From Leucosporidium creatinivorum (lineage: Eukaryota; Basidiomycota; Microbotryomycetes; Leucosporidiales; Leucosporidiaceae), in NCBI GenBank assembly GCA_001600635.1, contig BCKL01000002.1:1596266-1660265 (forward strand): a stretch of 64,000 bases of DNA, written 5' to 3'. The notes under the pieces were generated by a model. That model was not told the origin of the DNA and did no database searches. It saw only the letters and a list, made by a program, of their open reading frames with translations. Of this stretch, positions 7,154 through 64,000 are shown piece by piece (position 1 is the stretch's first letter; every line of letters begins with the position of its first letter). Position numbers and translations under genes: made by a program.

Positions 7154-7229
7154 TCTCCGGTGTTCCAGTCGTCCACATCGGTCTTGATCCTCTTCTGTAC
7201 TGTTCCCGTCCTCCTAAGCATGGCCTCGA

Positions 7230-10120: not shown

Positions 10121-10122
10121 AA

Positions 10123-28382: not shown

Positions 28383-29620
28383 CTACATCCACTTCCCGAA
28401 ATGCTCCTCCCACTCGTCCACGATCCAACTCCCTTGGGCAAAGGCAATGCCCCGCTCATGACAAATGGTCTCGATGTATTCTGAGGCCTCTGGAAAGATG
28501 TCCGTGGAGCCTGGCTCGGGTTTCGGCCAGATCTGAAGCCTTTTGAGGCTTGACCGACACCCGTTTAGGAGCAGGGCCAGGGCCGGGTAGTCGTAGACGG
28601 AGGGGCTACAGCGCAGAGTGTGAAGAGGTGAAGAGGAGAACGATTGAGGCCGGATGTTCCAGTCGTCCAGGGAGAGGTCGCGTAGGTTCGCAAGGCGAAG
28701 TGAAAGCCGAAGCGACGGCGGCGGCGTCGCAGCGAGTTTGTTGCAGAAGACGAGGGAGGTGAGGGTTTCTTGATGGCTGCCAAGGATGGAGCGCAGGTCT
28801 TGGAGGTTGATGCAGCATCCACGGATGTCGAGATGCGTAAGAGGAGCTTGAGGGGAGATCCGAAGCTTCCGCGCCGTTTCCGGTCGGAGCTGGTTGAGAC
28901 GAAGAGATTGGAGGTGTCGGAGGGACAGGACTCCTCGATCCAACGTATCTCCTTCCTCGGTCCCGCCCCAACTCAGTCGAAGAGTGGTGAGCAAAGGTAG
29001 CCGCTCGAGCAGGGCACCAATGGGCGCGCCGCTGATAGACTCTCCCACTGACAACGAGAGGGCGGTGAGGGTGTTGGAAAGGCCGGACGCAGCTCGAAGA
29101 AGCTTGTCCCATGTCGCTGCAGGAGTATCGAAATGCGTGATGGCGATGTCGAGGTGGCGAAGGTTGACCATGAGGGGGAGGGCGATGGCGTAGATGATGT
29201 TGTAACAGGAAATGATGGCGCTCGTCGATTCAAAAGCTGCGCCTTGCTGAGCGTATAAGCGTAGGAGTCGAACATGTTGCCCGTACAAGGGGAGGAGGGT
29301 GTCGATGAGCTCGGGGAGGCGGTCGAGGTGGTCGGGGGAGATGGGAAGGTTCTGTGGGGCGACGGGGAGTGATCAGAATTGCTCGCAGCTTGCAAGATCC
29401 CCAGTCAGCTCACCTTCCACCTCTGTGGCTCGGACAGCTTCCTCAGCTCTCGGTTCGTCGACGAGAGGCTGCAGAGAGCTCGAGGGCTAGCGATTCCAGT
29501 CCAGGCGATGATCTCGAGCTTGAGCTCGGTAGGGAGGGTAGCGAAAGGCGATGGCTCAGAGGTGGAAGAGGTGGAGGAAGAGGAGGAGGCGGAGGAGCTC
29601 GGCGAATCGGAGGAAGCCAT
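28383..29620 (-). CDS. F-box/LRR protein C
   Basis: Exon 1 (29,414-29,620) encodes a Ser-rich start and an F-box-like motif (FATLPTELKLEIIAW ... LCSLSSTNRELRKLSEPQRW). A 62 nt intron follows. Exon 2 (28,383-29,351) encodes about 322 residues of degenerate leucine-rich repeats, for example LPLMVNLRHLDIAITH, LERLPLLTTLRLSW and ANLRDLSLDDW, and ends WEEHFGKWM. The 391-residue product would be a substrate adaptor of an SCF ubiquitin ligase, with the F-box binding Skp1 and the LRR part binding target. The frame is intact. Its closest relative in the window is C' at 37,071. F-box assignment is by pattern, so the Skp1 link is inferred. Confidence 0.8.
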
Positions 29621-29946
29621 CTGCGAAGGGCGAAAGGAAGTTAGCTCGGCTTCTCGTCAATAAAGTGTGTGAGCTCTCGCCGAGCACGGCTGTATGGAGT
29701 GGCCAAGCCCATTGCTCGTATGCAGGCCCTCTCCCTCCTCGCCGACCGCCTCCTGCTCGTCCGCTTCCGCCCTCTTCCGCCTGCTCGCTGTTCCCTGCAG
29801 CCGTCTTCTCGCAAGGCGTACAGCTGCACGTCGGCCTCCGGCGAAATGCTACCCCTGCTCTATTCGACCACAGCTCTGCTTACCTTCTCGATAAAGCCAG
29901 CCGTCGAGTCGTGTTTGTATCGCTTTCGAGCGCTGGAAGGCCAGCT
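29569..29946. repeat. Direct repeat left of the assembly gap
   Basis: This segment, holding the start and upstream region of F-box gene C, matches 30,047-30,423 at an offset of 477 bases with few differences. It stops exactly at the run of Ns. Confidence 0.85.
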
Positions 29947-30046
29947 NNNNNNNNNNNNNNNNNNNNNNNNNNNNNNNNNNNNNNNNNNNNNNNNNNNNNN
30001 NNNNNNNNNNNNNNNNNNNNNNNNNNNNNNNNNNNNNNNNNNNNNN
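29947..30046. other. Assembly gap of 100 Ns
   Basis: Exactly 100 N bases, the usual placeholder for a gap of unknown size. Both sides carry the same sequence, so the join is suspect. Confidence 0.97.
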
Positions 30047-32103
30047 AGGTGGAGGAAGAGGAGGAGGGGAGGAGCTCGGCGAATCGGAGGAAGCCATCTG
30101 CGAAGGGCGAAAGGAAGTTAGCTCGGCTTCTCGTCAATAAAGGGTGTGAGCTCTCGCCGAGCACGGCTGTATGGAGTGGCCAAGCCCATTGCTCGTATGC
30201 AGGCCCTCTCCCTCCTCGCCGACCGCCTCCTGCTCGTCCGCTTCCGCCCTCTTCCGCCTGCTCGCTGTTCCCTGCAGCCGTCTTCTCGCAAGGCGTACAG
30301 CTGCACGTCGGCCTCCGGCGAAATGCTACCCCTGCTCTATTCGACCACAGCTCTGCTTACCTTCTCGATAAAGCCAGCCGTCGAGTCGTGTTTGTATCGC
30401 TTTCGAGCGCTGGAAGGCCAGCTAGCCTCAGCTAGCAAGCGAGGAGAGGTGGTGTAGCAGCTACGATGTTATGTCGAGGATCCTGTACTGCTGCAACGAG
30501 CGGCGAGATGTCGGAGCGAGCGCGACGACGAAAGCGAGGACGAGGGGAGAAGCCAAGAAGCGAAAGGCGGATCGAGCAGGTGATGAGAGGAAGTTGGTTA
30601 TAAGGTGCAGGATGCAGGGCTCGAGGTAAGTAGGCTTTGTGTGTTTTCACTTGCCTGGCACTTGCTGTCTCTTGGTTCCCGCTGAGCTGCACTGCGCCAA
30701 TGGGGCGGCGACCGAGAGTGGCTCCGAGCAGTGTCCCAAGCTACAGCCGAGATCTCGGATGTCACGGTGCGGCTCGATGCCGCGCTTAATATCAGCACTA
30801 GCTCAGCATGTCCCTGTCAAAGAGGTTCTTCTGCTTTCAAGGCGTCGACAGCCACCTCGTCAACCAAGTCCGAGCAGCTCGGCGGATCTGCTGAGCCGGG
30901 CCGTTGGTCGTGCTGCACTCGAGCAGCTTCAGGATGACTCTATAGACTCTGGTGACCTAACTTGAGAGCGCATGACGACCATCTGACACCAATGTGCAGC
31001 CGACTTGGCGGGCAAGGCTTAGGCTTAGAGCATCCGACTTTGTGGCGAGGGTGTCCTCGTGACAGTGGTCTCGATGGAAGTGTACATCAGTCTCGAGGAG
31101 ATGGCTTGGGAGGCTCAGAGGCGCCGTGGTAGCTCGAAACGTCCCCTCGAGCGTCCAGAGGCCAGCGCCGAAGCGGTCACCGAGACTTGCTGTCGCCGCT
31201 GGGGCGCGCCGGGACGGTAGACGAGGTTTGATCGCGAAGGGCATAGAGATACGCGATGCGTCAGCTCTCCCCTTCTTCTTCGTCCTCTGCTCTCCCCTCT
31301 CGACTCGGCACCGACACGAGACTGAAAATGAACCGCCGAAAGCAAGCGTTGGTTTTGCAAGCCCGGCCCTACAACCCCCCCTTCTCCTTCTCCATTCCCC
31401 CTGGGGCACAACATAGCACGCTTAGACCTGTGATGAGAGGGGGAGAGAGTGAGGTCAGCGAGCTGTTCCAAGCAGAAGCTCACAGACGCCGAGCTGCACT
31501 CACCGAGGTCAAAGCAGCGGGCTCGACAAAGTCGCCCTTGGGAACCTTGACACCACTGTCCTCAGCAACCTCTCCGGCGTGGAGCTCGAGGAGCTTGTTG
31601 ATGCTGGTGAGGTGAGAGAGGGAGGGGCCGGAGGTCAGCTCGGCTCGAACAACAGACGACGGCATTGGACTCACTCGAACTTGGGCGCCTTGAGGATCTT
31701 CACCTTGCGGACGTAGCAGTTCTGGAGAGGGTAGACTCCCTGCGACGCCTTCTCGATCTCGCGGCCGATGACCTGAGCGTGGGAAGAGAGGAGAGATCGT
31801 CAGCGACGCCGAAACGGCTAAGTCCACCGGCGAAACGACGGCGAGAGCGTAAGGACAGCACTGACCTCGGGAACCAACTTATGAACGAGTTGCTTCAAAT
31901 CGCAGCTGGAAGCCTCACGAACAGCAATCTCCATCATCTTCTTGCGGATCTCGCGGATCTGCGAAGCCTTGGCGTAGGTAGTCTTCTTGACCTGGTTGGG
32001 GCGCTTCTTGGTGAACGCGATGGTAAAGAGGCGGATGAGGTAGCCGTCGGTGGTCTTGACATCGACGTGGGCCTCGATCAGCGACTGCCACTTGCGCACG
32101 AGC
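30047..32103. repeat. Inverted repeat, left arm
   Basis: This arm is the reverse complement of 35,065-37,121; for every paired base the coordinates sum to 67,168, so there are no indels. I found about four base differences over 2,057 bp. It contains the first 51 coding bases of a C'-type F-box gene on the minus strand, its upstream region, an unassigned kilobase and the 3' two-thirds of the eS1 gene. Confidence 0.9.
30098..31421. other. Non-coding part of the left arm
   Basis: No gene is recognised between the F-box start fragment and the eS1 stop. Short open stretches exist in several frames without splice partners. The sequence is conserved in the right arm, but that only reflects recent duplication. 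Confidence 0.4.
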
Positions 32104-32964
32104 GAGCGGAGCTTGTCCGAGGTGAAGTCCATGCCGTGGAAGTTGGTGAGGCAGTTCTTTCCCTGGATCTCGTCGACGCGGAGCTTGATCTTGCGGAAGG
32201 TGTTCTCGTCATCCTTGTTGAGGTCGGCGAGCGAGAGCTCAAGGATGCGGCCCTTGAGGGAGTCGTTGGCGTTCTCTGCGGAGGGGGACCAGAGGGTCAG
32301 CGCCGGTACCACGGGAATGCGAGGGAGGTGCGGCGAAAGTGTAGGCGATTGTTGCTGATGGATAGGAAGGGGCAGGGAGGGTCGGCGGAGGCTGCGAATC
32401 GAGACGCACTCAATCCAGAGGAGCGGTTGACGAGGGTCTTTCCAACGTTCCGGGTGTCGAAGATAGAAGGAGCCTTGATGTCGTACCAGTCTGCAGGAGT
32501 ACGGCAGCGTTAGCTACAACTCCGAGCCCTCGGGACCACTCCTTCGACGTACCCTTGCGGGTGAAGGGGTCTACGACGCGCTTCTTGATTCCCTTCTTTC
32601 CCTTTGAAAGGCGCTTGTTTTTTCCGACAGCTGTTGTAGGTGAAGAGGCGGAGGAGAAGGGTGCAACAGGTCAGCGTCGTATGCCGGCAGCGGTTCCCCT
32701 TGGGCATTGAAAGCGGTCCCTCGTCGAGTCCTGCAGTCGAGCAGCAGTTCCCCCTGCCACGGCAATAGCACCACCCAATGCACCATCATTCTCTCCCCCG
32801 TCCTAGCCTGCCCCTGCTGTCTCTGCACCTCTCCCAACCCTCCCACGACGCCCTCATCCAAATTTGCTCTGCCTCCCGCCTCAGAGTTCGGTTTGACCAC
32901 GGGCGAAGCTGTAGGGTATGCTGGCGGGGCGGTGTACACGTCTAGTCGAATGAGACGTACCCAT
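31422..32964 (-). CDS. RPS1: 40S ribosomal protein eS1 (S3a)
   Basis: This is eS1, a component of the 40S platform near the mRNA exit. Exon 1 carries only the ATG and one further base before a GTACGT donor at 32,960, a layout common in fungal ribosomal protein genes. Translation then reads [91 protein letters not shown] and [14 protein letters not shown]. The end is [10 protein letters not shown] and VEPAALTSV. The stop follows one intron after ALTS. Domains and length match full eS1, with six introns. The last two-thirds lie in the inverted repeat, so a truncated copy exists at 35,065. Confidence 0.95.
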
Positions 32965-33678
32965 GGTGTAAAGATGGGTGGTGAGATCGGATGGGCGAGC
33001 TGACGAAGTGAAAGAGCTGTTGGCGGGATTCGAAGGAGTCGAGCTGAGAGCGAAAAGGAGGTCATCTCGTTTCGACTTGACCTCGGTCTTGGGGCGACAT
33101 AGTAGCAGCTTCAGAAATCTCTGTTAGTTGACTCATTACAGCCCAATACTCACTTACCGCTGTCCATCTGGCTGGAGAAGCCTCGTCGGCGCTGCCTCTC
33201 CGCCTCTTTCGCTCTCGCCCATTGCTTCGAGTCTCACTTCGGCAGACGCTACAGCGCCTAATAGTCGACAGAGGCTGTCTGGAGCTTCCCGCTAGTACGC
33301 TGGTCGCCTCCGCTGCTGCACGACCAGCCTTATGAGCTCAAAGAGCCCGACTCCAAGCTCGCCTCTTGGTCGCCCGCTCCACTGTACGCCAGCCTCCGAG
33401 GCGCACCGCCTCGTCTAATCAAGATATATTGCACCCTGCCCTGCTTTCCCGACTTCTCCTTCGTCCATCTCGGCTCGGACTTGCACCCTCGCCAGCCCTC
33501 GTCTCCCAGCGGACGCTGCCTCGTTACTGTTCGTCTAAGCAGTAAGTCGGATGGTTCGGCCTTCCAATTCCATGATGTCGACCTTGCAGCTGCTGTCAAC
33601 ACCCCGGGCTACCTGCTCGCCATCTTTGACCACCTTGACTACTCGCTGACCTTTGTCGCTCGTCTGCAGTTTCCCGCC
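32965..33678. promoter_or_regulatory. Region between eS1 and F-box gene D
   Basis: The 714 bp between these divergently transcribed genes should hold both promoters. It lies in the unique spacer of the inverted repeat. Pyrimidine-rich stretches occur on the coding strand of eS1 just before its ATG. No specific ribosomal protein promoter motif is claimed. Confidence 0.4.
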
Positions 33679-34924
33679 ATGTGTATATCCTGCGACCACC
33701 AAGAGCTGCTGGTCGCGCCTCATGCTCAACCTTCCGCCGACTCCCTGGACCGCCTGCCGCCCGAGCTCAAAGGCGAGATCGTCAAATGGGCTTCCTTCGG
33801 CGCCGAGAAGGAAGCGACGCTCGCATCGCTGAGATTGCTCAGCTGGGACTTCTGCTACTACGCTACGCCTCTGCTCTTTGAGGTGAGCTGGCCGAACCCT
33901 TCCCAAGCCACTGCCGAAGCTCACCGATGACTTCACTCGCGTGCAGGAGATTGAACTCTTCCCCGAGACGAACGGCCCTCAGCTTTTCCAACGCTTCCAC
34001 GAGGACGTAGCTCTTCGCCATGGCTCGATGGTCAAGCGGATCATCATTGAAGCACGCACCGACAACATCAACCTTCACTCTCATCCCATCACCCTCGACG
34101 ATGTCCTCATGCTCCGCCGAACAGCCCTTATCCTCCCACACCTCTGCAACCTCACCAGACTACATCTCGATATCCTTCCCGCCACTCTCGGGGACTTCGA
34201 GTACGAGCCCATGCTCGACTTGCTCAACCGAGTTCATCTCCCCTCCCTCGAATGGCTCGCCTTAACGGCGTATTGCACGAGGCCTATGGACCCCATTCGA
34301 CTCGCGCAGACGGTCCGACGTTTCAATGGTGTACGACACCTATACATCGCGGGTGTAGCGTGGACGCATGGACCCGAGCTCGCCGAGGCCATCGCTTCAC
34401 TGCCCCTCGTCGGCCTTCGCCTCGGCGACATCGACGGTCCCATCCTTCACCACCTCGCCGAAATTCCTTTGACCAATTTCAACTTGTCTATTGCCCATCT
34501 CGCCATCATCGACTGCCCCTCCACCAAGCTCGTCGACCTTCATCTCCTCTTCCTCCGCCTCGCCAGTACCCTCACCCATCTCAAGCTGGAGTACGCCGAA
34601 GAGCTCGAACCCAGCTCGCAGGCAAAGCTCATCTTCCCCTCCTTCCTCAAGTCCTTCACCCTCCGTGCACCACCCGCTCATGCCCTCATCATGCTCGGCT
34701 TCTTCCGTCTGTGCCCCTTCACCGAGTTTAGAGTGCTAGGGTCACTCGAGGTGGCTTTCTGGAGCTTCTTGCACGAGATGGTGATGCGCACGGGAGAAAG
34801 GCAAGCGTTGAAACGGTTCTGCGTGGAGGTCACGAACGAAGCGGAGAAGCAGGGGTACGAGCTGCTGAGGCCGATGTTGCTAGCGAAGGGGGTGCAGTAC
34901 GAGGTAGTCGAGGTGGAGGCTTAA
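33679..34924 (+). CDS. F-box/LRR protein D
   Basis: Exon 1 (33,679-33,882) encodes 68 residues with the F-box-like motif DRLPPELKGEIVKWASF ... LRLLSWDFCYYATPLLFE. Intron 33,883-33,946 follows. Exon 2 encodes 325 residues of leucine-rich repeats such as LPHLCNLTRLHLDIL, LPSLEWLALTAY and TLTHLKLEYAEEL, ending YEVVEVEA. The intron lies at the same place, behind the F-box, as in the other family members. The 393-residue frame is intact. It is the only F-box gene in the spacer between the inverted repeat arms and the most divergent one of the family in this stretch. Confidence 0.78.
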
Positions 34925-35064
34925 CTTATCGCATATCCTAAGTGCTGTTACTGTTGCTCTTTATGTGACAAGAGCGAGATAGGGAATCCGGCGCGAGCAA
35001 AGCGAGTTCGGCCGCTCGGCGAAGACCTGATGAAAGCTCTGAGGGACTGGTTTCACAGCCCGCT

Positions 35065-35746
35065 GCTCGTGCGCAAGTGGCAGTCGCTGATCGAGGCCCA
35101 CGTCGATGTCAAGACCACCGACGGCTACCTCATCCGCCTCTTTACCATCGCGTTCACCAAGAAGCGCCCCAACCAGGTCAAGAAGACTACCTACGCCAAG
35201 GCTTCGCAGATCCGCGAGATCCGCAAGAAGATGATGGAGATTGCTGTTCGTGAGGCTTCCAGCTGCGATTTGAAGCAACTCGTTCATAAGTTGGTTCCCG
35301 AGGTCAGCGCTGTCCTTACGCTCTCGCCGTCGTTTCGCCGGTGGACTTAGCCGTTTCGGCGTCGCTGACGATCTCTCCTCTCTTCCCACGCTCAGGTCAT
35401 CGGCCGCGAGATCGAGAAGGCGTCGCAGGGAGTCTACCCTCTCCAGAACTGCTACGTCCGCAAGGTGAAGATCCTCAAGGCGCCCAAGTTCGAGTGAGTC
35501 CAATGCCGTCGTCTGTTGTTCGAGCCGAGCTGACCTCCGGCCCCTCCCTCTCTCACCTCACCAGCATCAACAAGCTCCTCGAGCTCCACGCCGGAGAGGT
35601 TGCTGAGGACAGTGGTGTCAAGGTTCCCAAGGGCGACTTTGTCGAGCCCGCTGCTTTGACCTCGGTGAGTGCAGCTCGGCGTCTGTGAGCTTCTGCTTGG
35701 AACAGCTCGCTGACCTCACTCTCTCCCCCTCTCATCACAGGTCTAA
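35065..35746 (+). pseudogene. 5'-truncated copy of eS1
   Basis: The sequence starts abruptly within codons for [11 protein letters not shown] and then follows the eS1 gene to the same stop, keeping its introns. It lacks the start codon and the N-terminal half, so it cannot make eS1. It is the end of the right inverted-repeat arm, and its intact reading frame and unchanged introns show that the duplication is recent and DNA-mediated. It could also be an assembly product. It is a host gene copy, not a retrocopy. Confidence 0.85.
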
Positions 35747-37070
35747 GCGTGCTATGTTGTGCCCCAGGGGGAATGGAGAAGGAGAAGGGGGGGTTGTAGG
35801 GCCGGGCTTGCAAAACCAACGCTTGCTTTCGGCGGTTCATTTTCAGTCTCGTGTCGGTGCCGAGTCGAGAGGGGAGAGCAGAGGACGAAGAAGAAGGGGA
35901 GAGCTGACGCATCGCGTATCTCTATGCCCTTCGCGATCAAACCTCGTCTACCGTCCCGGCGCGCCCCAGCGGCGACAGCAAGTCTCGGTGACCGCTTCGG
36001 CGCTGGCCTCTGGACGCTCGAGGGGACGTTTCGAGCTACCACGGCGCCTCTGAGCCTCCCAAGCCATCTCCTCGAGACTGATGTACACTTCCATCGAGAC
36101 CACTGTCACGAGGACACCCTCGCCACAAAGTCGGATGCTCTAAGCCTAAGCCTTGCCCGCCAAGTCGGCTGCACATTGGTGTCAGATGGTCGTCATGCGC
36201 TCTCAAGTTAGGTCACCAGAGTCTATAGAGTCATCCTGAAGCTGCTCGAGTGCAGCACGACCAACGGCCCGGCTCAGCAGATCCGCCGAGCTGCTCGGAC
36301 TTGGTTGACGAGGTGGCTGTCGACGCCTTGAAAGCAGAAGAACCTCTTTGACAGGGACATGCTGAGCTAGTGCTGATATTAAGCGCGGCATCGAGCCGCA
36401 CCGTGACATCCGAGATCTCGGCTGTAGCTTGGGACACTGCTCGGAGCCACTCTCGGTCGCCGCCCCATTGGCGCAGTGCAGCTCAGCGGGAACCAAGAGA
36501 CAGCAAGTGCCAGGCAAGTGAAAACACACAAAGCCTACTTACCTCGAGCCCTGCACCCTGCACCTTATAACCAACTTCCTCTCATCACCTGCTCGATCCG
36601 CCTTTCGCTTCTTGGCTTCTCCCCTCGTCCTCGCTTTCGTCGTCGCGCTCGCTCCGACATCTCGCCGCTCGTTGCAGCAGTACAGGATCCTCGACATAAC
36701 ATCGTAGCTGCTACACCACCTCTCCTCGCTTGCTAGCTGAGGCCAGCTGGCCTTCCAGCGCTCGAAAGCGATACAAACACGACTCGACGGCTGGCTTTAT
36801 CGAGAAGGTAAGCAGAGCTGTGGTCGAATAGAGCAGGGGTAGCATTTCGCCGGAGGCCGACGTGCAGCTGTACGCCTTGCGAGAAGACGGCTGCAGGGAA
36901 CAGCGAGCAGGCGGAAGAGGGCGGAAGCGGACGAGCAGGAGGCGGTCGGCGAGGAGGGAGAGGGCCTGCATACGAGCAATGGGCTTGGCCACTCCATACA
37001 GCCGTGCTCGGCGAGAGCTCACACTTTTTATTGACGAGAAGCCGAGCTAACTTCCTTTCGCCCTTCGCAG
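35747..37070. other. Non-coding part of the right arm
   Basis: Mirror of 30,098-31,421. It lies between the eS1 fragment and F-box gene C' and should include the promoter of C'. No gene recognised. Confidence 0.4.
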
Positions 37071-38307
37071 ATGGCTTCCTCCGATTCGCCGAGCTCCTCC
37101 CCTCCTCCTCTTCCTCCACCTCTTCCACCTCTGAGCCATCGCCCTTCGCTACCCTCCCTACCGAGCTCAAGCTCGAGATCATCGCCTGGACTGGAATCGC
37201 TAGCCCTCGAGCTCTCTGCGACCTCTTGTCGACGAACCGAGAGCTGCGGAAGCTATCCGAGCCACAGAGGTGGAAGGTGAGTCACTCGGAGCCTTTTTAC
37301 AGCTATGTGCGCTGATGACTTGCGACCGAATTACAGAACCTTCCTACCTCGCCCGCCTATCTCGACAACCTCCCCGAGCTCATCGACACCATCCTCCCGC
37401 GTTACGGCCACCACATTCGACTCCTACGCCTGGACGGACCGACGGGTCCTGAAGACCGCATGTCTAGTGAAGCCCTGACTCTATACTACGACTTAATCCA
37501 TACCGCCCTTCCCCTCATGACCGGCCTCATCCATCTCGACGTCACGGCCGCGGAACTGGGTGCAAACCGCACGAATCTGAGGGGCCTTCGACACGCCATC
37601 CCCGTCCTCTCCAAATCCCTTACAAAGCTGACACTTTCGGCGGGGAGCGCAATCAGCGGGGTCGCCATCGGTGCCCTCTTCGCGGCGTTACCTTCCCTCA
37701 CTACCCTGCGCTTGAGCTGGACGAGTGTGAGAAGCGGAGGCGTAATGGCACGGGCGTTCTATTCCCTACACCACCTGGAGTCGCTGCAAATCAGCGTGGT
37801 TCGGGCGAGTACGATGCACAAGGTTCGGCTCTCGCCTCGAGCTCCCTTACCCATCTCGACTTGCGCGATTGCGCCGTCGACTTGGATGACCTACACTCTC
37901 TTCTATCTGCCCATCAAGACACCCTCACCTCCCTCGTCCTCTGCGCTGTAAGCCCCCCGGTAACACCACGACCGCCGACCTTCCACCTTCCGAACCTCCG
38001 CGACCTCTCCCTCGATTCCGACGGCGCTCAGCCTACCTTTTTCTCCTCTTCACCCCTTCACACTCTCCGCTGCACCTACGCGCCGGACGATCGCCTGGAG
38101 CCGGTTCTGCAAGCGCTCGACCAGCATCGGTCGACACTAAAGAAGCTTCGGGTGTGCGAGACAGACTGGAGCGGCGTCACAGGCGAGACCGATTACCATG
38201 ATGATCTGGAGAAGGTCAGAGCGGTATGTCGAGAGCGAGGTATCGACTTCGCCGAGGGGCGTTGGAAGGTCGACGAGTGGAATGCGCACTTTGGGAAGTG
38301 GATGTAG
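37071..38307 (+). pseudogene. F-box/LRR gene C', frameshifted
   Basis: This is the mirror partner of C. The first exon is about 95% identical to that of C, but one base is missing in the Ser-rich codons before the F-box, near 37,101. The ATG at 37,071 therefore does not read into FATLPTELKLEIIAW, and no other ATG opens that frame. Exon 2 starts near 37,337 (NLPTSPAYLDNLPELIDTIL) and is only about half identical to that of C at protein level. A second one-base loss lies near 37,848. The end is NAHFGKWM. Two frame breaks make it a probable pseudogene, unless the draft sequence is wrong. The fragment at 30,047-30,097 shares the first loss. Confidence 0.75.
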
Positions 38308-39010: not shown

Positions 39011-40386
<1,376 letters not shown>

Positions 40387-42041: not shown

Positions 42042-43414
42042 TCATCTCCACGCCTCCAAGCTAACCTCGATCCCCTCTGCTCGCCCCAGCTCGGCGACCT
42101 CATCCCAAGGCGCCAGCAATCTCCTCCAATTCGAAGGGGTCATGTCTCGGGTCGCCTCCAGGTCGTGCGAGATGACACGCTTCATAAGATCATCCATGAG
42201 CTGTACGTCCAGCCGCTGGAGATGGCTCCCGTGCGCCCGGATGGCCCGCCGAACGGCAGCGAGGTTGGCCTGCTCCAACGCCTCGTCGATCTCGAAGCGC
42301 CCCGCGCCGATGTCGTAACCCTCGTTTTGCATGCAGCGAAGGGTCTCCAAGGGACTTGACGAGAAGTAGTCGAGGAAGGAAAGGTTGACGCTGATGTGGA
42401 GGGACAGGTGGCGCAGTCGAGGGAAGGTCGGCGCTCGTTGCTGGGGGAGAGGGTGAGGTTCCTTATCCCAGTTGCGGCAGATGAGAGTGTGGAGGGTGGA
42501 GGAGATAGTGGAGATGACGTCCAAGAGTTCGGCGGGCTTCAAACTGAGGCATTCGAGCACCTCGAGAGGTGCGTCGAACCTCGCCCCCTGGAGGCTGTTT
42601 CCGAAGACCATGATCATGCGAAGCTTCTTGAGGTTGTGCAGAGTGGTGAAGGCCTCTACTAGCTCGGGGCCGTCGTGCATGCCGAGATGGGGGCCGCCGA
42701 TGTTCTCGAGGTGCAGTGAGGTGAGGAGGGGAAGGTTGGCGACAATCTCGGCGACTCGAGGGGCGGACATGGGGTAACGACTTTGAGGGCCGACGAGGCG
42801 GAGGGAGGTCAGAGTCTTTCCGAGCATTGGCGTCGCTTCCAGAAGGTGGCTGTCGCCATCCAATCCATCGCGGTCGATGAGGGAGCCGAAACAATCGATG
42901 TCGAGCCGTGTCAACGCCGAGAGGTGCTCCAGCGCCGGCTGGAAGAAGTTCCACCGCATCATTGAGGTCATGAGCTGAGGCTCAACACCCGCTTTGTCGT
43001 CGGCAACCTCGAGATAGATGCTCTTGATGAGGGGGCCGTACTTCTTCGCATGCCAGCGGAAGGGCAGGAGCTCCTCGTATTTGACGTCGCGGAGCTTGAA
43101 GTCGTCGTCCTTAACCGGTGGGTCGCTCTTGTCCATCTCGAATTTGAGGTCCTGTGATTGTTGTGTCAGCGACGGAAGGACACTGAGGCAGGTTGGCCAC
43201 TCACGCCGAAGATGACGGGTTCGCCGAGACGGCGAAGCTCGTTGCAGGTCGACGCTAGGGAAAGGACGAGGCGCTTCCCTCCTAGAACGTTGCAGCATTC
43301 GAGGATCTGGATCTTGAGCTCGGGAGCCAGGCGGTCGAAGTAGCTCGGCGCGGAGGGTGAGGGACAGGCGGCCGGTGTCGACGAGGGCTTCTTGCTTCCC
43401 TTCTTCTTGGCCAT
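42042..43414 (-). CDS. F-box/LRR protein A
   Basis: Exon 1 encodes a Lys-rich start (MAKKKGSKKPSS) and the F-box-like motif SYFDRLAPELKIQILECCNVLGG ... STCNELRRLGEPVIFG. An intron of about 50 nt follows near 43,152-43,204. The long exon 2 encodes LRRs (HLSALTRLDIDCFGSL, LPLLTSLHLENIGG, TLHNLKKLRMIMVFG, FPRLRHLSLHI) and ends EVSLEAWR. The product of about 440 residues is intact. The basic start might be a nuclear signal. It has an inverted, decayed partner, A', at 60,189, with which it shares the opening residues and also upstream DNA. Confidence 0.8.
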
Positions 43415-44029
43415 GGTGGTCTCTTGTGGGTTGATGAAGGTCTGCGGATGAGTTAGCGGTCAGCTGTGTACTCCTAGTCGTCCTCAGAAGCCTTGCAGAT
43501 GCCGTCGAGCTGCTCTGAGCTGGCGCTGCCCTCGCCGTGCAGCTGTCGAGCCGTCGCGACGAGGTGCACAGCAGCAGCAGCATCCTTACTACCTCATCGA
43601 GCTGTAGCTGTATGCCGACCGCGCTCGTTGCGCCTACAGAGAGAGAACGGAAGCTCACCTCGAAAAGGTGCAAATCAACGGCGAGAGCAGATAGTAGAGC
43701 GCTGTAGGCTAGTAGCGAGCAAGTCGAGTAGCACTGAAGAGCTGACAAGCTTCCTGTGGTTGAACGAGCGAGTCGAAGAGAGCGATGACGAGGGGAGAAG
43801 TCAACGAGCGAGAGCGGCGCGCGGCGAGACTTGGTCGACTGCAACGGAGCTCGAAAGGCCTGCAGCAAAGGCCTAGCAGCTGCCTTAGCATTGTGATGTA
43901 GCCCGAGACCATAGCTTGGATGATTTGAACCCTAACAAGACCGACCGAGCAGATGTTTGCCTTCGCCGAGCTCTCGCCGAACTCAAGCTACAGACCTCGA
44001 AAGCTCCATTGATGCAACAGCTCACACCC
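43415..44029. other. Region between F-box genes A and B
   Basis: The 615 bp hold the promoter of A and the terminator of B. Two stretches (about 43,490-43,700 and 43,915-44,029) are recognisably similar, in reverse complement, to 59,811-60,188, so the duplication of the A-B pair included its spacer. Confidence 0.6.
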
Positions 44030-45412
44030 TCAATACCACTTCGTGATGATCCCCAATTCGCTACACCGCTCCCTCACTACCCTCCACGGCTCCAACGCCC
44101 TCGTTCCGGGAGTATCCTCTCCCGCCGCCCACTCCTCCTCCAGCCTTCCCAACAGCAATCGTGTATCTCTCAGAGACATAGTCTTGACATCCAACAGCTT
44201 GAGCGTGTCTCTATGGACCTCCACGAGCCTCAGCATCTCCTTCACGCTTCGAGCCTCGGCGACGGGGTCGACCGAATACTCGTCTTCAGCGGGGTCCGAG
44301 TTGATCTGGACAATCTTGAGGAAGTGTAGCGGGCTGGAATTGAATCGAGCAACGAAAGACAGGTCGAGGTGGCCATCCAGGGAGAGATTCACTAGATGCG
44401 GAAAGCGAAGGTTGTCGGCGTCGGTGGGAATGGCCTCCTTGCGGCCGCTGATTACGCCACGGACAAAGATGGAGTGAAGTGTAGCCTCGTGGCTCCGGAT
44501 GACCTCGATCAAGTCGGGTAGATACGTGTGGGAGGCGCGGTCGTCCAAGATCTCCAACGGCCCGGAGAGACGAAGGTTGGCGAGGAAGCTGTCGTCGACT
44601 TCGCTGATGCGGAAGGAACTGAGGTGGTGTAAACTTCCAGTGGCCTCTTTGAGGAGGGTGTAGTCCTCAGGCCGAGATTCGTGTTGGTTGGTGCCGACGT
44701 CTTGGAGGCTAAGGGCGGTTAGGAGGGGAAGGGCGCCGAGAAGTTGGGCGAGACGATCGGGGTGCATGGAGAAGTGCTCGACGTTGCTCGACAGGCGTAG
44801 GGAGGTGAGGGTATTGCTGAAGGTGGGTGCAGCGGTGAGGAGGTAGTCGTCACCCTCGATGTCGACCCTGGGGCCAGCCAGAGACGTGTACTCGGAGATG
44901 TCGAGTTCTTGAAGGGAGGAGAGATGGCAAAGCGACCTTTTGAAGCCTCTCGACCGGACGATGGAGATGGCATGTTGGAAATTCCACACCCCATGAGGTG
45001 CCCGCTGTAGGCGTACGCTCTTGACGAGGTGACCAAAGCCGCGCGAAAGCAAGGCGAAGAGGCTGAACGTCCTGTCTTGGCATGCGAGCTGGAGACTCTC
45101 CTCGTTGGCGGCCTCAAAGCTTTCGGGTAGAGTGAAGGAGAGGTCCTGTTTTGAGTCGAGGTCAGCCTTCGAGACGAGGAAGCTGGTAAGAAGACGACAA
45201 ACTCGGTAGATCAAAGGCCGACCGAGTTCCTGCAACTCTTTCGACGTTCCCATCAATCGCACGAGGAGCGGCTTTCCTCCCAGAGCGATGCAGTTCTTGC
45301 AAATGGCAAGCTTGAGCTCCACTGGCAGACGATCTAAGAGATTCGGCTCGAGTGAATAGTTCGGCGAAGGGAGAGTGGGTGCCGGTGAGGGCTCGGCGTT
45401 CTCTTCAGCCAT
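44030..45412 (-). CDS. F-box/LRR protein B
   Basis: Exon 1 encodes a Pro/Ser-rich start and the motif NLLDRLPVELKLAICKNCIALGG ... MGTSKELQELGRPLIYR. The intron near 45,150-45,205 is in frame and free of stops, so reading through it would add about 18 residues. Exon 2 encodes LRRs such as HLSSLQELDISEYTSL, LPLLTALSLQDVG and FPHLVNLSLDGHLDLSF, ending CSELGIITKWY. The product of about 440 residues is intact. Its mirror partner is B' at 58,420. Role as an SCF substrate adaptor is inferred from the F-box-like motif and LRRs. Confidence 0.8.
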   Translation of the reverse strand: MAEENAEPSPAPTLPSPNYSLEPNLLDRLPVELKLAICKNCIALGGKPLLVRLMGTSKELQELGRPLIYRVCRLLTSFLVSKADLDSKQDLSFTLPESFEAANEESLQLACQDRTFSLFALLSRGFGHLVKSVRLQRAPHGVWNFQHAISIVRSRGFKRSLCHLSSLQELDISEYTSLAGPRVDIEGDDYLLTAAPTFSNTLTSLRLSSNVEHFSMHPDRLAQLLGALPLLTALSLQDVGTNQHESRPEDYTLLKEATGSLHHLSSFRISEVDDSFLANLRLSGPLEILDDRASHTYLPDLIEVIRSHEATLHSIFVRGVISGRKEAIPTDADNLRFPHLVNLSLDGHLDLSFVARFNSSPLHFLKIVQINSDPAEDEYSVDPVAEARSVKEMLRLVEVHRDTLKLLDVKTMSLRDTRLLLGRLEEEWAAGEDTPGTRALEPWRVVRERCSELGIITKWY

Positions 45413-51600: not shown

Positions 51601-53366
<1,766 letters not shown>

Positions 53367-55749: not shown

Positions 55750-56066
55750 CTCGGCGATGAGGGAGACGGCATGAAACACGCTTGGTGTCGTCGCTCTAAG
55801 ATGGGGAGGGAGTAGTGTTGTACGATTAGCTAGTGCCTGACATTGCATCGTCGGGCGGGAGGGCACAGATACTCAGTTTTGTCGACTCGGCGCGGGAGGG
55901 GAGCGAGCGTGAGCAGTGTCGAGCAGAGCAGAGCAGGGAGATGGAGCGGAGCAGAGCAGCAGTTCAGGCGACGAGCGAGCTCTCTCCTCTCCTCCTCTCC
56001 TCTTCCACGCAACTCGACGAGAGGCATGTATAAATCTAGCTTTCCATCTCGCTCGGGTCATTCAGT
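55750..56066. other. Intergenic region between convergent genes
   Basis: About 315 bp with GAGCAGAGCAGAG repeats near 55,910-55,960. No gene is seen. Confidence 0.4.
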
Positions 56067-57442: not shown

Positions 57443-58419
57443 TAAAGAGAGAAAGCCGAGAGCTCGGCTGGGGGTTCAGCAGCAGCTATCGGTGGTGGAG
57501 ATGAAGTCCTGTAGCGTTCTGTGGGGGTGGAACGATGGGTCAGTCCACAGCTCTCGCCGCGGTGAGCTGATGGAGCGTTTCGGCTCAAGGGCGCCTGCAG
57601 CTCCTGCAGCATCTTCAGCTCCATAGCAGCAGTTGCGCACCATTCCTCTATCCATGCAGCTTCCTGCCACCCTTCCTGTACCCTACCGCCGACAGCCACT
57701 GAACGGCGCGCTGCCGGTACGCTGCGACGCCGCGAGAGCGATCCTGCAGCCTTCCAGCCGCTCTTTCCAGTCTTCTGTAGCGCACTTCTATCCTCCTTAG
57801 TCCGACCTACCTAGTCCGGCTTCTCCAAACGAGCTAGTCGTGGTGCAATCAGCCCAGGCGACTTCAAGTCGACGCGTGACGCTGGTTCGAAAGCTGGAAG
57901 GTGGAGGCTGAGCGGCGGTAAAATAGCCTGTGGTGTAGCTGAGTAGATCTAGGAGTGTATCGGAGCTGCAGGAGAGGTCGAAGTAAAGTCTAGAGATTCG
58001 GCGAGAGCCAAGAGCGGTGCGCGGTCGTCGGTTCGAGGTTGTGCTCTTCCGTGATTCCTCGTCTCGCTGCTTCGATCCGCACGACAAGCTGTAGCACATT
58101 AGGATCGTATTACACCTCTGCTGCTGTACCTCGGACCGTCGCATCGTCCTTGGCCCCACTCCTCGTTGAAATTGAGCTTGGAACAGTCAAAGGTGAGTTG
58201 TCAGCGCTTGCAGGAGACGGGCAGAAACTTACAGGGCGATGGGGATCAGAGGAAGAGCGTGTTGTGCGCCTATCTCTGCTGCTCGGTGCTTGCGAAGTAC
58301 CTTGGTGGAGCAGCAGAGGTCGGCGCGGGATACGGGCTCGGGAAGCTGTGCAGCTACAGCTCAGCAGAAACGAGTGGGAGGAGCTGACCTTCTTTTGACA
58401 TTACCTAGTGACTTCGCCA
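57443..58419. other. Intergenic region, no gene recognised
   Basis: Nearly 1 kb separates the DUF1640 gene start from F-box gene B', with the two transcribed in opposite directions. Both promoters must lie here. No other gene is seen. Confidence 0.4.
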
Positions 58420-59810
58420 TGGCCGAATCGCTAGCTGAACCATCCTCGGCGACTGCTCTCTCATCGCCGAAACCCTTCTCCCTCTCCGTCGCGCCGAACC
58501 TCATGGACCGACTTCCTCTGGAGCTCAAGCTTGCCGTCTACCAAAGCTGCCTCGATGAGGGAGGCAAAATGCTTCTCCTCCGACTGATGGGGACGTCCAA
58601 GGAGCTGCAGCAGCTCGGCAGGCCCTTGGATCTATCGGGTAAGCGCTTCCTTCTCCCACTCAGATCTTGCAGCTGACCGTCTATCAAAACAGCACCTCTC
58701 CTTCACCATTCCCGACACTGCTCACGCCGAGAAGAGGAAGCTCGACATGGCGGACAAGGACAGGACGTTCAAGACCTTCCGATTCTGCTCGCGCCGCTAC
58801 GGGTACCTCACCGAGAGTGTGCGCATCCAGCTCGCCGACGAGGGAAACCCGGTGTACCAACACACTCTCTCCCTCACGCGCTGGTCTCGCTTCCAGGACT
58901 CGTTACCCCATCTCACGGCGTTGAAGCACCTCGACATCTCTCAAATCACCTCGCTAACGGGCGACGCCGGCCACCTCGATGGCAGTGACCATTTCCTCAC
59001 AGCCGCCTCCTCCCTCGGCACAACCCTTACCTCATTACGGCTCTCGGCTCACGTTCAGCGTTACCCAATCTGCCCCTTTCGTCTCGCCGAAGTCCTCGCG
59101 GCCTTGCCTCTCCTCAGCGACCTCCACCTCGAAGGAATAGCCAACAAGTACTGGGCCCCGGGCAATCAATGGCCCGCTCTCAAGACCGCCATCGGGAAAC
59201 TGCGATGCCTCAGGCGTCTCATCTTCGAGAACGTCGCCGAGAACATGCTCGCAGGGCTTCGGATCTCGGGACCGTTGGAGGAGCTCGATGACCGCAGCTC
59301 GGTGACCAACCTGCGTCAAGTCATGGAGGTGATGCAGGACCACGAAGCCACGCTGCAAACCATCAAGTTTCAGGGGACCATCGCCATGGGCGACGAAGCC
59401 ATCCCCGGCGACGCCGCTCGCCTCCGATTCCCTCGCCTCCGCTATCTCGCATTCGACGACCACCTCGACATCGCATTCATCTCCCGCTTTGACGCCAGCC
59501 CCTCCGTACCCTTCACTTCGCACAGGACCACTCGGACCCACTGCTGGACGACGGATACGTTCCGGACCCCGTCGCCGAGGCGAGGAGCGTAGCGGGCGTA
59601 CTAAAACTCGTCGAGGTCCACCAGTCGACGCCGGAGCGACTGGAGCTGAGGATGATGAGTTGGAGCTGGAGGGACGATCTGAACCTGATGGCGGGGGTGG
59701 AGGAAGAGTTGGCGGCGGGAGAGGATACCGTGAGGACGAGGGCGCTGGAGCCGTGGACGGCAGTGAGGGAGCGGTGTAGCGAATTGGGGATCATCACGAA
59801 GTGGTATTGA
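58420..59810 (+). pseudogene. F-box/LRR gene B', one frame break
   Basis: Exon 1 carries PNLMDRLPLELKLAVYQSCLDEGG ... MGTSKELQQLGRPLDLS, and the intron (gtaagc...aacag) ends at about 58,692. Exon 2 is similar to B throughout (LKHLDISQITSL, LPLLSDLHLEGIA, FPRLRYLAFDDHLDIAF). The frame changes by one base near 59,500-59,515, at the codons matching NSSPLHF of B. The other frame then reads PLHFAQDHSDP and continues to the shared end CSELGIITKWY. Read literally, translation ends early near 59,592. It is a likely recent pseudogene, or a draft base error in an active gene. It is the mirror partner of B at 44,030. Confidence 0.75.
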
Positions 59811-60188
59811 GGGTGTGAGCTGTTGCATCAATGGAGCTTTTGAGGTCTGTAGCTTGAGTTCGGCGAGAGTTCGGCGGCGGGGGCAGCCATCTGCTCGGTC
59901 GATCTCATTAGAGTTCAGTGTGCCGCTGTTTGCACCTTTTCCGAGGTGAGCTTCCGTTCTTTCCGTGTCGTCGCGAAAAACATTGGTAGCATACAGCTGC
60001 AGCTCGAAATGGTAATCAGGATGCTCCTGCTACTGTGTACCTCGGCGCGACTGCTCGACAGCTGCAGGGCAGGGGCGGCGACAGCTGAGAGCAGCTTGAC
60101 GGCGCCTGCCGGTTTCCGAGGCCGAGGAGGAACATGCAGCTGATCTCAAACTCTTCTGCAGACCTTCATCGAGCACTAAGCAACCGCC
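59811..60188. other. Region between F-box genes B' and A'
   Basis: The 378 bp are similar in parts to the A-B spacer at 43,415-44,029 in reverse complement, including the bases just before the start of A'. It must contain the promoter of A'. Confidence 0.6.
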
Positions 60189-61856
60189 ATGGCCAAGAAG
60201 AAGGGAAGCAAGAAGGCTTCGTCGACGCCGGCCGCCTGTCCCTCACTCTCCGCGCCGAGCTACTTCGACCGCCTCGCTACCGAGCTCAAGATTCAAATCC
60301 TCGAGAGCGGCCACGAGCTAGGAGGCAAGCGCCTTATCATCCCGCTGGCATCGACTTCCAATGAGCTTCGGCGGCTCGGCGAAACCGTCATCTTTGGCGT
60401 GAGTTGCTCGCTCACTTCGGTCGCATGCACCACTGACACCTGCTCCGTAGGATCTCGACTTCTTCTTCGTCTATTCGAAGCTGGACCCGCCGGAGGGCAC
60501 CTTCACCCCGGCCGACGGCGACTACAAAGCCTTCCCCATCTTTCAACAGCTGTCCATGAAGCATGGCCCCCTTGTCAGGAGCATCTTCGTGCAGCTGGCA
60601 AACATGTTCCATCACGGTGAAATCATGCTCAGCAGCCATGATGCGGTGGAACTTCTTCGCGGCGTTGCTACCAAACCTCACGGCGCTCGAGCGGCTGGAC
60701 ATCGAATGCTTCACTTCCCTCATCTGCGACGAGGAGTTAGGTGCCGACAACCGCCTTCTCCGAGCCACGCCAATGCTCGGCAAAACCCTCACCTCCCTCC
60801 GCCTCTGCGCCCCTCGCTATCGCTTCTCCACGTCGCCGCCCGGAGCAGCCGCCATCATCGCCAACCTCCCCCTCCTCACCTTGCTACACCTCGACCACAT
60901 CGGCGGTCCCGAGACGGGACTACCTGAAGGTCCGGAGCTGCAGCAAGCGATCCTCGGTCTGCGGCACCTCAAGAAGCTCCGTATCGTCAACGCGCCGGGC
61001 AGCATCTTGCTCGGCGCTCGGTTCAGCGCGCCCCTGGAGCTGCTCGAGTGCGAGGGCTTGTATCCCTCCGACCCTTTCGACGTCAACCGCCCCATCGCTT
61101 CCACACTCCATACCCTCATCTCTCGTCTCTCGGGCAAAGACGTCCAGCCGCTGCCTCGGCGCCCAGCATTCGACCTTCCTCGTCTCCGCCACCTCTCCCT
61201 CCGCGGCGGTCGAGGCCAACATCGTCGATGGATGGAGCCGTCTTCCAAGGTCCCCTCGAGATGCTCGAGTGCCGGAACGTTCACCCCATGGCGCTTCTCA
61301 AGGCTGTCCGCCCTCTTGGAGCTGCTCTACGGACCCTCCAGTGCTGCAACTTCGGTGGCTCGCCCTACACCCTCCCGGTGGCTCGCCCTACACCCTCCCC
61401 GACCTTCCGCCCCTCGACCTACCCCAGCTACGCTCCCTCTCCTTCGACTTCAACATTGACCTCGCCTTCCTCGATCTCTTCGCCGCAAGTCCACTGAAAC
61501 AGATCCGCTGCTGCCAGTACCAGGTTCCTAGCCGTTACCACCTTCGCATCGACCCAAACGTCGAGCTGGCCAATCTTGCCGCCGTGCGCCGAGCGCTCCT
61601 GCTGCACAAAGCGACGCTCAGGCAACTGGACGTACAGTTGCTGCAGTGGCATGACTACATTTGGATCACGCTAGCCAACGAGCAGGCGCTGGCTTCGGGT
61701 GATTTTGCGATACGAAGTGCGGCGGGATTCGGAGACGGGTCGGCGCTCACAGACGCCGCGAGGGCATTACGAGCGCGATGGGATGGCGTTACAGAGCTGT
61801 GTCGAGTGCAGGGCGTTGAAGTAGCATATAGGACTTGGGATGTAACCTCTATTTAG
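60189..61856 (+). pseudogene. F-box/LRR gene A', several frame breaks
   Basis: The opening MAKKKGSKKASSTPAACPS and the motif SYFDRLATELKIQILE are nearly those of A. After the conserved intron the LRR exon needs at least three frame changes to follow A: near 60,640, near 61,205 and near 61,380. The last coincides with a 23 bp tandem duplication (ggtggctcgccctacaccctcc, twice at about 61,364-61,409). The segment after 61,225 (PLEMLECRNVHPMAL) resembles an earlier one (PLELLECEGLYPSDP), so an internal LRR block may be duplicated. The end reads VQGVEVAYRTWDVTSI. It is very likely a decaying paralogue of A. Confidence 0.8.
61364..61409. repeat. 23 bp tandem duplication inside A'
   Basis: Two back-to-back copies of a 23 base unit beginning cggtggctcgccctacac. 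As 23 is not a multiple of three, it alters the frame of the host F-box gene. Confidence 0.85.
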
Positions 61857-61954
61857 ATCGCGCAAAACGACCGAAACGAGCGCCGAGAGCCTGAACTCGC
61901 TGCCCGCTCGTAAGATCATGTCTAGTGTCCTTCCAGCACCCATCCAAGCTTGAT

Positions 61955-62751
61955 CTACCACCATTTGACCGACTCGAGCTCTCCCCTCCACCACACGCCC
62001 GCTCCAACGCCCAGCAGCCCGAGCACCGCCCAGCCGAGGTCCAACCTCACAACGCTCCACACCCACAGTGTTCCGATTCCTGGTGCTTGCCGCATGACTT
62101 TGAGATAGCTCTCCGTCGTAGTGATGTGTACTAGAGCGATGCCGGTGCCGACGCAGAGGCCGAAGAGGAGGGCTTGGATGAGGAAGGGAGGGAGGATTGG
62201 TTTCGGCCGAGAGACGAGGAAGGTGAGGAGGAAGATGGCTGTAGGTCGACAGGGGGATAGAAAGGTCAGCTCTGATTCTGGCGAAGGTGTAATAAGAGCT
62301 TTCTAGGGACGATGTTGAGCAGTCGGCCGACCTCGTCTCGACTGCGAAGGTCCATGCCGAACTGAGCGTGCACGGCGTAATCCCTGCAATGGGGCGAGTC
62401 AGCGGTCGTCGGGAAGCTTTAATACATCTCTACTCACATGCCCGAGAAAAGAAAGCCGAAAGGAATAGTCCACAGCAGAGCATTCGCCAGCTCCTCCCAC
62501 AGCTGCATTTCCTCGCCCGCCGCTTCCTGTTCCTGTAGTGCGACTTTAGCTGCTAGCTCTTCGGGCGTTAGGACCAGTAGCGGATCCTTGTCTGCTCCTG
62601 GAAGTGATGAAGGTTTGAGGCCCGAGTGCGAGCTGAGCAGGCGCAGGTGGTCGGCGTCGCTCAGGGTGAATTCTGTAGGCGATGCGGGAGGGGAGGGCGA
62701 AGGCGAAGGAGTCCAGGATCCAGTCTGTACTGTACGGCGCCGTTCAAGCAT
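61955..62751 (-). CDS. Small multi-pass membrane protein
   Basis: Three exons encode about 215 residues. The N-terminal third is Ser/Pro-rich and then acidic. After it come hydrophobic segments: ELANALLWTIPFGFLFSGM, VPSIFLLTFLVS, FLIQALLFGLCVGTGIALVHI and VVRLDLGWAVLGLLGVGAGVWW. The stretch VHITTTESYLKVMRQAPGIGTLWVW between helices three and four is highly polar for such a site and probably the conserved core. The layout resembles a small uncharacterised fungal family of ER-type membrane proteins (DUF7719-like), but the assignment is tentative. The start at 62,751 and stop at 61,957 are clear. Confidence 0.65.
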
Positions 62752-63148
62752 ATTGGTCTAGGCTCGGTGATTCGGTAAGAAGCTGAGATTCAAGCTCGCG
62801 CTTCTTGTCCTCGTACGCTCACCTCGACTCGCTGTCGATACGCTCGCGGAGTGCCCTGGATCAGCTACAAGTCGTGCGAAGCTAAAGCTACTGCTCAGCG
62901 TCCCTCCCTTTACGCCGCTCTCTCTTCGTCTCGTCGTCTTGGTCGCGCTTTGGGCTCGCGCCTGAAAGCTTGGAGCGCAAGTGCACTACAACTCTTCGGT
63001 GAGCTCACCTTTCTGTACAAGCGCTCAAGCTGTACGCTGCTGTGTAGCTGCATTCTGACGGGGCGCCCAGAAAGGCTGCAGACGCTGAACCGCCGAACGC
63101 TCCGAGCGCTGACCGCTCGACGTCTTTCTTACCCATAGGCCCGACACC
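62752..63148. promoter_or_regulatory. Region between divergent genes
   Basis: Almost 400 bp separate the starts of the membrane protein and F-box gene E, so both promoters lie here. No motif stands out. Confidence 0.4.
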
Positions 63149-64000
63149 ATGAGCGAAGCTGGACCTCTCTCTACATCAGACGAAGCTGTCCCCACTATCA
63201 CCTCTCCTTTCGACTCTTCGCCCTCCTCGACCCTCGCCCGAGCTTCCCTCTCCTCCCTCCCCGCCGAGCTCAAGCTTCAGATTGTCGAATCAGTAGAGGA
63301 TCACCAAGACATCATCGACTTGCAGAGTGTCAATTGCGAGTTTCATGCCCTGGCCAGTTTCGCCCGCTGGAGGGTCAGTCCCGTCATCTGCTCCATTCGG
63401 CGACACGGGCGCTGATCCAGTCCATCTCTTGCAGAGGGTCTTCTCCGTCCAGCACCGCCTTGCCAACCTGCGGGCGTTGACTGACGCTGTCGTTCCCCAA
63501 CATGGTCACGCCATGGCCGCCCTCAGGACGGGGTTTGACTGGGACGCGGATTCGGACTTCATCAGCTACGAGGACGAGGAGCGGTTCGCCATCTTCCTCC
63601 ACCTCCTCCGAGCCCTTCCCCACATCACCGAACTCGGGATTATCGAACTGCCACTCGAGCCCTCCCTCATCTCGGTTTCCGCTGGCCGGTCACTCCACCT
63701 CACCTCGCTCAGTCTCTTCGGCCTGGACGACGATCCCCTGATCCCCGAGACGTCGCCTCTATCCTCTGCACGTCCCAGCAACTCATACAATTGGACCTAT
63801 CCGACGTTGCATCGGCAGACGAGCAGACGATGAGCTCGGTCGTAGCCGCAGTTCGAGGGCTGGAACACCTGAAGTTGGTCCGATACTCGTTCGTTCCGCG
63901 AGCCTTCGTGGAGGGACTCAGCCATTCCGCACCTCTAGCTTGCATCTACATGCTCGATGTTGGCGGTGTCAGACCCTCGGGCGTCCTCGACCTCTTGCGC
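63149..64000 (+). CDS. F-box/LRR protein E, cut by the window edge
   Basis: The start MSEAGPLSTSDEAV leads to the F-box-like motif LSSLPAELKLQIVESVEDHQDI ... VNCEFHALASFARWR, with an intron directly behind it, as in the rest of the family. Exon 2 has LRRs (LRALPHITELGIIELPL, SLHLTSLSLFGLDDDP). Near 63,745 the reading frame appears to shift by one base and then continues as LCTSQQLIQLDLSDV and GLEHLKLVRYSFVPRAF to the window edge. It could be a frameshifted paralogue, a sequence error or a missed intron. The 3' end is outside the window. Confidence 0.65.

Follow-up and report, generated by a model that had tools for sequence, protein, structure and literature searches.

FBXL proteins (FBXL3, FBXL17 and FBXL2, D3 and COI1 of plants, Dia2 of yeast) are adaptors of Skp1–Cullin–F-box (SCF) ubiquitin ligases that carry leucine-rich repeats (LRRs). 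Two reports on nematodes describe F-box families in which the F-box is kept and the substrate domain evolves faster (PMC12062965, PMC5041008). Here we describe an F-box/LRR family of Leucosporidium creatinivorum, eight members of which lie in a 64,000-nucleotide stretch of contig C2 (BCKL01000002.1, positions 1,596,266-1,660,265; hereafter the window) of a genome of 27.7 Mb in 63 contigs. We consider it probable that the intact genes are SCF adaptors and that they are part of a large family, apparently restricted to this lineage, which evolves as two modules, a 5' cassette and an LRR exon. F-box/LRR families are of a known kind, and the modular history is the unusual part of this one. The exon plan, the LRR fold in a model of one member and the discordant histories of the two gene parts in several pairs were observed directly. 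Among the titles and abstract openings listed for literature on fungal F-box genes, expansions, subtelomeres and Leucosporidium, none gave an account of the family.

Exon plan of the eight window genes

The initial annotation, made from the letters of the window, had described an eight-member cluster with a common exon plan, and this description holds. A six-frame scan found the motif L[PA]xELKxx[IV] eight times in the window, once in each named gene and nowhere else, compared with a mean of 0.02 and a maximum of 1 in 60 random sequences simulated from the dinucleotide steps of the window; A and A' carry the LA variant, and the copy in B' ends in V. All eight genes share one plan, with a start codon, some 68-75 codons reaching just past the F-box, an intron of 52-64 nt and a single long LRR-like exon. 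In every one of them the F-box exon ends at a GT donor, with an AG acceptor downstream, and the intron is in phase 0 in the four intact genes.

These four, A, B, C and D, have uninterrupted reading frames from start to stop codon. Gene C (28383-29620, minus strand) encodes a product of 391 amino acids from an F-box exon at 29620-29414 and an LRR exon at 29351-28383, separated by a 62-nt intron. Gene D (33679-34924, plus strand; exon 1 at 33679-33882, intron of 64 nt, exon 2 at 33947-34924) has the most divergent LRR exon of the four. Genes A (42042-43414; exon 1 at 43414-43205, intron of 53 nt, exon 2 at 43151-42042) and B (44030-45412; exon 1 at 45412-45203, intron of 57 nt, exon 2 at 45145-44030) both lie on the minus strand. 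Since the intron of B (GTTTGT...CAG) is stop-free and in frame, B can also be read as one open reading frame (ORF) of 460 amino acids. By inspection, C and A likely have an additional intron upstream, in the 5' untranslated region (5'UTR).

Broken copies, of which the initial annotation had expected at least three, are real and number four of the eight (C', B', A' and E), although their frameshifts may come from sequencing error. All four are on the plus strand. C' (37071-38307) has one frameshift in exon 1 (37071-37276) and, after a 60-nt intron, another in exon 2 (37337-38307). Compared with B, B' (58419-59810; exon 1 at 58419-58638, exon 2 from 58693) has one extra base near the donor at the end of exon 1 and loses the frame near 59,500; its ORF stops at 59592, and homology to B continues beyond this stop to about 59,810. 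A' (60189-61856; exon 1 at 60189-60398, intron of 52 nt) contains at least two frameshifts in exon 2, which starts at 60451. Gene E (63149-64000; exon 1 at 63149-63373, intron of 61 nt, exon 2 from 63435) has one frameshift near 63,750, and its second exon extends beyond the window, where it was read on in L009.

F-box and LRR domains

The proposed F-box plus LRR architecture is supported by a profile-profile match of exon 1 and by an LRR arc in a structural model of B. Across 22 aligned first exons, L29, E32 and L53 are invariant and P30, L33 and K34 nearly so, and the conserved features of this alignment (LPxEL...I, a later L and an end near W or F) fit the F-box domain superfamily. Because Pfam returned no family above threshold on ten ORF pieces of the window, profiles were compared with profiles, and the exon-1 profile matched eight canonical F-boxes of the same genome (95.3%, pairwise E-value 2.2e-8). 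In the Pfam F-box search put forward by the initial annotation, the window genes were below threshold. In an AlphaFold2 model of B, helices span residues 31-44, 46-54 and 58-79, with a predicted local distance difference test score (pLDDT) of 71-86 at residues 21-70 and of 44 at residues 71-80. An LRR domain of the ribonuclease inhibitor (RNI) type lies C-terminal to the F-box, as in FBXL-type SCF adaptors. FBXL proteins are among the best structural neighbours of the model and share its order of N-terminal F-box-type helices followed by an RNI-type LRR arc, but sequence identity in those rows is 10-16%, the members of the present family are very different from one another, and Skp1 binding is here a prediction.

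Several results weigh against this assignment. With 150 of 330 candidates scored, the window contained no PF12937 match at an E-value of 1e-3 or below, and no window gene was among the at least 128 PF12937 or 32 PF00646 matches of a six-frame profile search of the genome, although the curated Pfam threshold marks a detection limit and not a biological feature (C' scored 12.7 bits against 24.3 at that threshold). At E-values up to 1, PF12937 was matched weakly by seven of the 22 exons (best 5.8e-4), and five matched PRANC (best 4.8e-4). Searched against the PDB, the exon-1 profile found two chains, both weakly: a cystinosin homologue (E-value 0.39) and 1fs1_A (0.81), labelled cyclin A/CDK2-associated p19, which we take to be the Skp2 F-box fragment; a PDB sequence search with B returned nothing. 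The structure-match rows from VIA mostly cover residues 70-460 of B and barely probe the F-box half, and since RanGAP, ribonuclease inhibitor, NLRP3 and TLR8 appear among them too, the LRR match goes no further than the fold. Foldseek comparison with the B model gave TM-scores of 0.27-0.44 in the named rows and three matches at an E-value of 0.001 or below. A second AlphaFold model, of the orthologue P0121, was poor (pLDDT 50.2) and was left unused.

If the genes encoded LRR proteins whose F-box has degenerated and which have given up their SCF role, perhaps to work as stand-alone binding proteins, such weak Pfam scores would be expected, and F-box proteins working outside SCF do exist. We nevertheless hold this to be quite improbable, given the residues kept over all 22 exons and a ratio of nonsynonymous to synonymous substitution rates (dN/dS) in exon 1 of 0.19 for both A/A' and B/B', though it is higher in other pairs. 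An adaptor role for the intact genes is likely.

Histories of the two gene parts

The sharpest discordance between 5' and 3' parts is found in C and C'. The 5' module of C, comprising leader and F-box exon (29414-29946, minus strand), is 97-100% identical, by part, to that of C' (36745-37276, plus strand). The leader matches at 100%, the 5'UTR intron at 99.2% and exon 1 at 97.1%, but intron 1 at 50% and exon 2 at 61%. The change-point, at 29,408 and thus some six bases beyond exon 1, separates 537 sites with 98.5% identity from 1,014 sites with 60.5%, with a log-likelihood ratio of 172.6 against 8.8 for the best of 200 shuffles. Synonymous divergence (dS) rises from 0.06 over 44 codons of exon 1 to 0.87-0.95 in exon 2. 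The C module stands at the end of a 2-kb inverted repeat whose left arm (30047-32113), running from the C leader to part of the eS1 gene, is 99.66% identical to 37121-35057; the right arm (35057-37121) holds a partial eS1 copy and the C' leader. The gene for ribosomal protein eS1 is at 31818-32513, and its partial inverted copy, at 35057-35557, lies beside gene D. As the longer eS1 is on the C side, copying was probably from C to C'.

The 5' region of C is interrupted by a gap of 100 N (29947-30046) flanked on both sides by a 378-bp direct repeat (99.5%), and these likely represent unmerged contig ends. Were the inverted repeat itself an assembly error, the strongest single case of module exchange would be false. 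The position of the gap and its near-identical flanks at the C end speak for such an error, as does the repeat copy right of the gap, which differs from C by one gap and one mismatch and from C' by no gaps and two mismatches. Both arms, however, lie within one N-free stretch, and the pairs A/A' and 509/536 and the trio 323/269/384, discussed below, are all away from the gap. An error of this kind is in our judgement unlikely.

In the pair A/A', the 5' module of A (leader plus exon 1; 43199-43682, minus strand) is 81.5% identical to 59922-60404, and seven bases beyond exon 1, at a change-point at 43,198, identity drops from 80.1% to 55.8% (log-likelihood ratio 45.8 against 8.3 in shuffles). Exon 1 of this pair has a dS of 0.43 and exon 2 one of 0.83-1.51. 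In B and B' the change-point is near the 3' end, where 60.0% identity gives way to 90.1% over the last coding bases and the 3' flank.

A second array, on contig C12 (186-538 kb), comprises about 22 F-box/LRR loci, 17 of them with a common leader of about 370 bp. The 366-bp leader of one C12 gene had 17 matches on C12 including itself (77-100%) and four short ones elsewhere. Identity over 27 pairs of eight loci, from which the near-identical pair 509/536 and locus 12_384 (short ORF) were left out, was 77.7% for leader DNA, 51.1% for exon-1 protein and 26.3% for exon-2 protein. Similarity of the leader correlated with that of exon 2 at a rho of 0.26 (p 0.18), and exon 1 with exon 2 at a rho of 0.43 (p 0.03), the 27 pairs being non-independent. 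Of five C12 pairs put to the change-point test, three (291/384, 269/323 and 291/339) drop from roughly 81% identity to roughly 50% at 32-36 nt past the start codon. Pair 509/536 has the reversed pattern, with 83.3% up to codon 37 and 98.9% beyond, and pair 323/384 departs from the leader pattern, with 59.5% upstream of position -75 and 82.8% downstream. The upstream leader of 323 resembles that of 269 (80% from -464 to +14), while from -152 through exon 2 it resembles 384 (82.85%); the exon-2 proteins of 269 and 323 are only 33% identical. By sequence comparison, locus 323 is a mosaic, in which a 269-like leader is joined to a 384-like coding part.

Some observations count against exchange of modules. 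The dS of B/B' is 1.23 in exon 1 and 1.04 in exon 2, with no discordance between the exons. Intron 1 of A/A', 54% identical in the first alignment, reached 78% with a gappier aligner (shuffled null 62.3, SD 6.5), which makes the edge less sharp than that of C/C'. The C/C' case touches the assembly gap, and leader conservation, with the C12 correlations given above, could reflect regulatory constraint.

Selection on the coding parts bears on the same question. For exon 2, dN/dS was 0.39-0.63 in six in-frame parts of C/C', A/A' and B/B', with one of six bootstrap intervals passing 1 (first exon-2 part of A/A', 0.25-1.31); the six pairings among A, B, C and D gave 0.50-0.71. Exon 1 gave 0.49 for C/C' (interval 0-2.59) and 0.18-0.86 in four A-D pairs, and was not computable in two. 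The proposed dN/dS check on exon 2 thus gave values below 1 in every pair read in frame and no signal of positive selection; as these are pair averages with dS near or above 1, positive selection at single sites is still compatible with them.

The low exon-1 ratios of A/A' and B/B', set against those of exon 2, fit a history of ordinary old duplicates without exchange, in which the F-box exon is under purifying selection and the leader under common regulation, the LRR exon and intron drift, and the breaks mark where constraint ends. Recurrent conserved blocks in the C12 leaders, and breaks at +32 to +36 past the start codon in three of five pairs, as expected of promoter constraint, point the same way. 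Yet exon-1 dN/dS is not uniformly low. In C and C', leader and 5'UTR intron match at 99-100%, and the 2 kb that take in part of eS1 at 99.66%, with intron 1 alongside at 50%. Constraint alone accounts neither for this pair nor for the reversed pattern of 509/536 or the mosaic 323. Common regulation may in part lie behind the leader similarity on C12, but explains none of these three cases, and we regard old duplication without exchange as a possible but less probable history.

In the two-module reading that we prefer, exon 1 would provide an F-box docking on Skp1 and exon 2 an RNI-type LRR arc binding a target for ubiquitination. The first module would be a 5' cassette, in which the leader is joined by the F-box exon or a portion of it, and the second the LRR exon; ectopic recombination or conversion would move or homogenise cassettes in some copies, while LRR exons diverge and many copies decay. 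Skp1 binding, the ubiquitin ligase role, conversion as the process and target diversification are what we infer in this scheme. The initial annotation had invoked tandem copying; as a full account, simple tandem copying is incomplete because in several genes the 5' part is not of the same age as the 3' part.

The family in the genome and among known systems

As the initial annotation anticipated, there are many members genome-wide. Single-protein searches gave, including the query, 12 genome matches for B, 11 for A, 10 for C and two, one of them weak, for D; L019, a member on C2 180 kb upstream, gave 29 at E-values up to 0.1, and the C12 member L074 gave 38. From the match rows we count about 35 loci, some matched by a single exon: eight in the window, three elsewhere on C2 (L019, F and L064), 22 on C12 (186-538 kb) and two on C18, with weaker matches on C14, C16, C20, C32 and at C2:333 kb excluded. 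In 14 of 14 F-box-like exons tested, of 16 outside the window, GT comes directly after the closing W or F and one further residue. Many of the C12 loci begin MAGWNDLPTELK, and the C12 loci were not among the at least 128 PF12937 matches.

The genome has one Skp1 locus. Its PF12937 matches form clusters, 55 of the 128 having a neighbour no more than 20 kb away, where random placement along one line of genome length gave 21.7 (maximum 40 in 1,000 trials). The canonical matches are most numerous on C8, C4, C1, C26 and C9, an expansion wider than the F-box/LRR family.

The fast turnover suggested earlier is supported by the four broken copies and by a word-based protein search in which B had no relative at an E-value of 0.01 or below among 7,995 scored candidates, although the same database contains L. 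creatinivorum proteins, eS1 being 99% identical to one over 60% of the query. Of the members, B and L019 were searched in this way, and L019 had five relatives at 63-82%, including L. creatinivorum at 63% over 73%; by sequence, it is a kept member, unlike B. Recognition of self, mating partners, viruses or transposons had also been suggested, and nothing was found to tie the family to it; a search of viral contigs with B gave no relative.

The cluster continues past the window with the intact member F, 5-7 kb beyond. L064 ends about 0.8 kb before the end of C2, and that end (C2:1,737,612; L064 last bases) carries TTAGGG-type telomere repeats, which places the window 77-141 kb from the telomere. 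By eye, an LRR-like fragment lies between the last family member and these repeats. The location, the half of the window genes that are broken and the stops in several C12 matches would suit a formerly functional family that now consists mostly of pseudogenes, its number kept by duplication near the chromosome end, with little present function. However, open reading frames are kept in A, B, C, D, F and L019, dN/dS of exon 2 is below 1 even with a broken partner (the interval noted above apart), and L019 is 63-82% identical to its five relatives, so that decay of this extent seems distinctly unlikely.

The rest of the window includes a Ty3/gypsy-type long terminal repeat element (1623-11206) with 1,084-bp direct repeats (1623-2706 and 10123-11206) that are 99.8% identical. 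Its interior encodes reverse transcriptase, RNase H and integrase zinc-binding domains, with rve just under the cut-off, and it seems to be nested in an older copia-type element (RVT_2 at 11383-11595). An isocitrate/isopropylmalate dehydrogenase-type exon (PF00180; 52738-53196) sits between the two halves of the cluster.

Canonical F-box genes are present here as in other Microbotryomycetes. In two published tables, PF00646 numbers 7, 18 and 12 in three Microbotryomycetes and 43 in Agaricomycetes (PMC4469406, Table 3), and Rhodotorula strains average 34.6 PF12937 (SD 13.1) and 22.2 PF00646 (PMC10662464, Table 3). The present genome differs in its at least 128 PF12937 and 32 PF00646 matches, with the C2/C12 family on top, a comparison that is rough since our counts come from a six-frame search and the others from other methods. 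Like the Caenorhabditis F-box families (F-box A, FTH domain), ours is large, clustered and apparently lineage-specific, and its substrate part changes faster than the F-box; there the substrate part is FTH and positive selection is reported, whereas here it is an LRR and pair averages reveal none.

With common leaders, swapped 5' modules and LRRs that have diverged widely, such a family of adaptors, if real genome-wide, would make fast-changing substrate recognition accessible to study in a yeast-like organism, and its broken copies beside intact ones, with the kept L019 beside fast-changing members, would allow a direct test of defence, conflict or drift. More speculatively, and on balance improbably, it might form a recognition repertoire acting via protein degradation, in which a swappable expression-and-docking cassette is exchanged among paralogues and joined to highly divergent LRR binders. 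Cassette capture could then switch on new target specificities, near the telomere and in the second array. To our knowledge, large LRR recognition families are not known from fungi; the title of one paper (PMC2939053) says as much of pattern receptors. Plant nucleotide-binding LRR (NLR) and other recognition-gene arrays are marked by clusters, pseudogenes, sequence exchange between paralogues and diverging LRRs. Unlike plant NLRs, the F-box/LRR family has no NB-ARC domain that we could see, but it shares all four of these features with NLR-type arrays.
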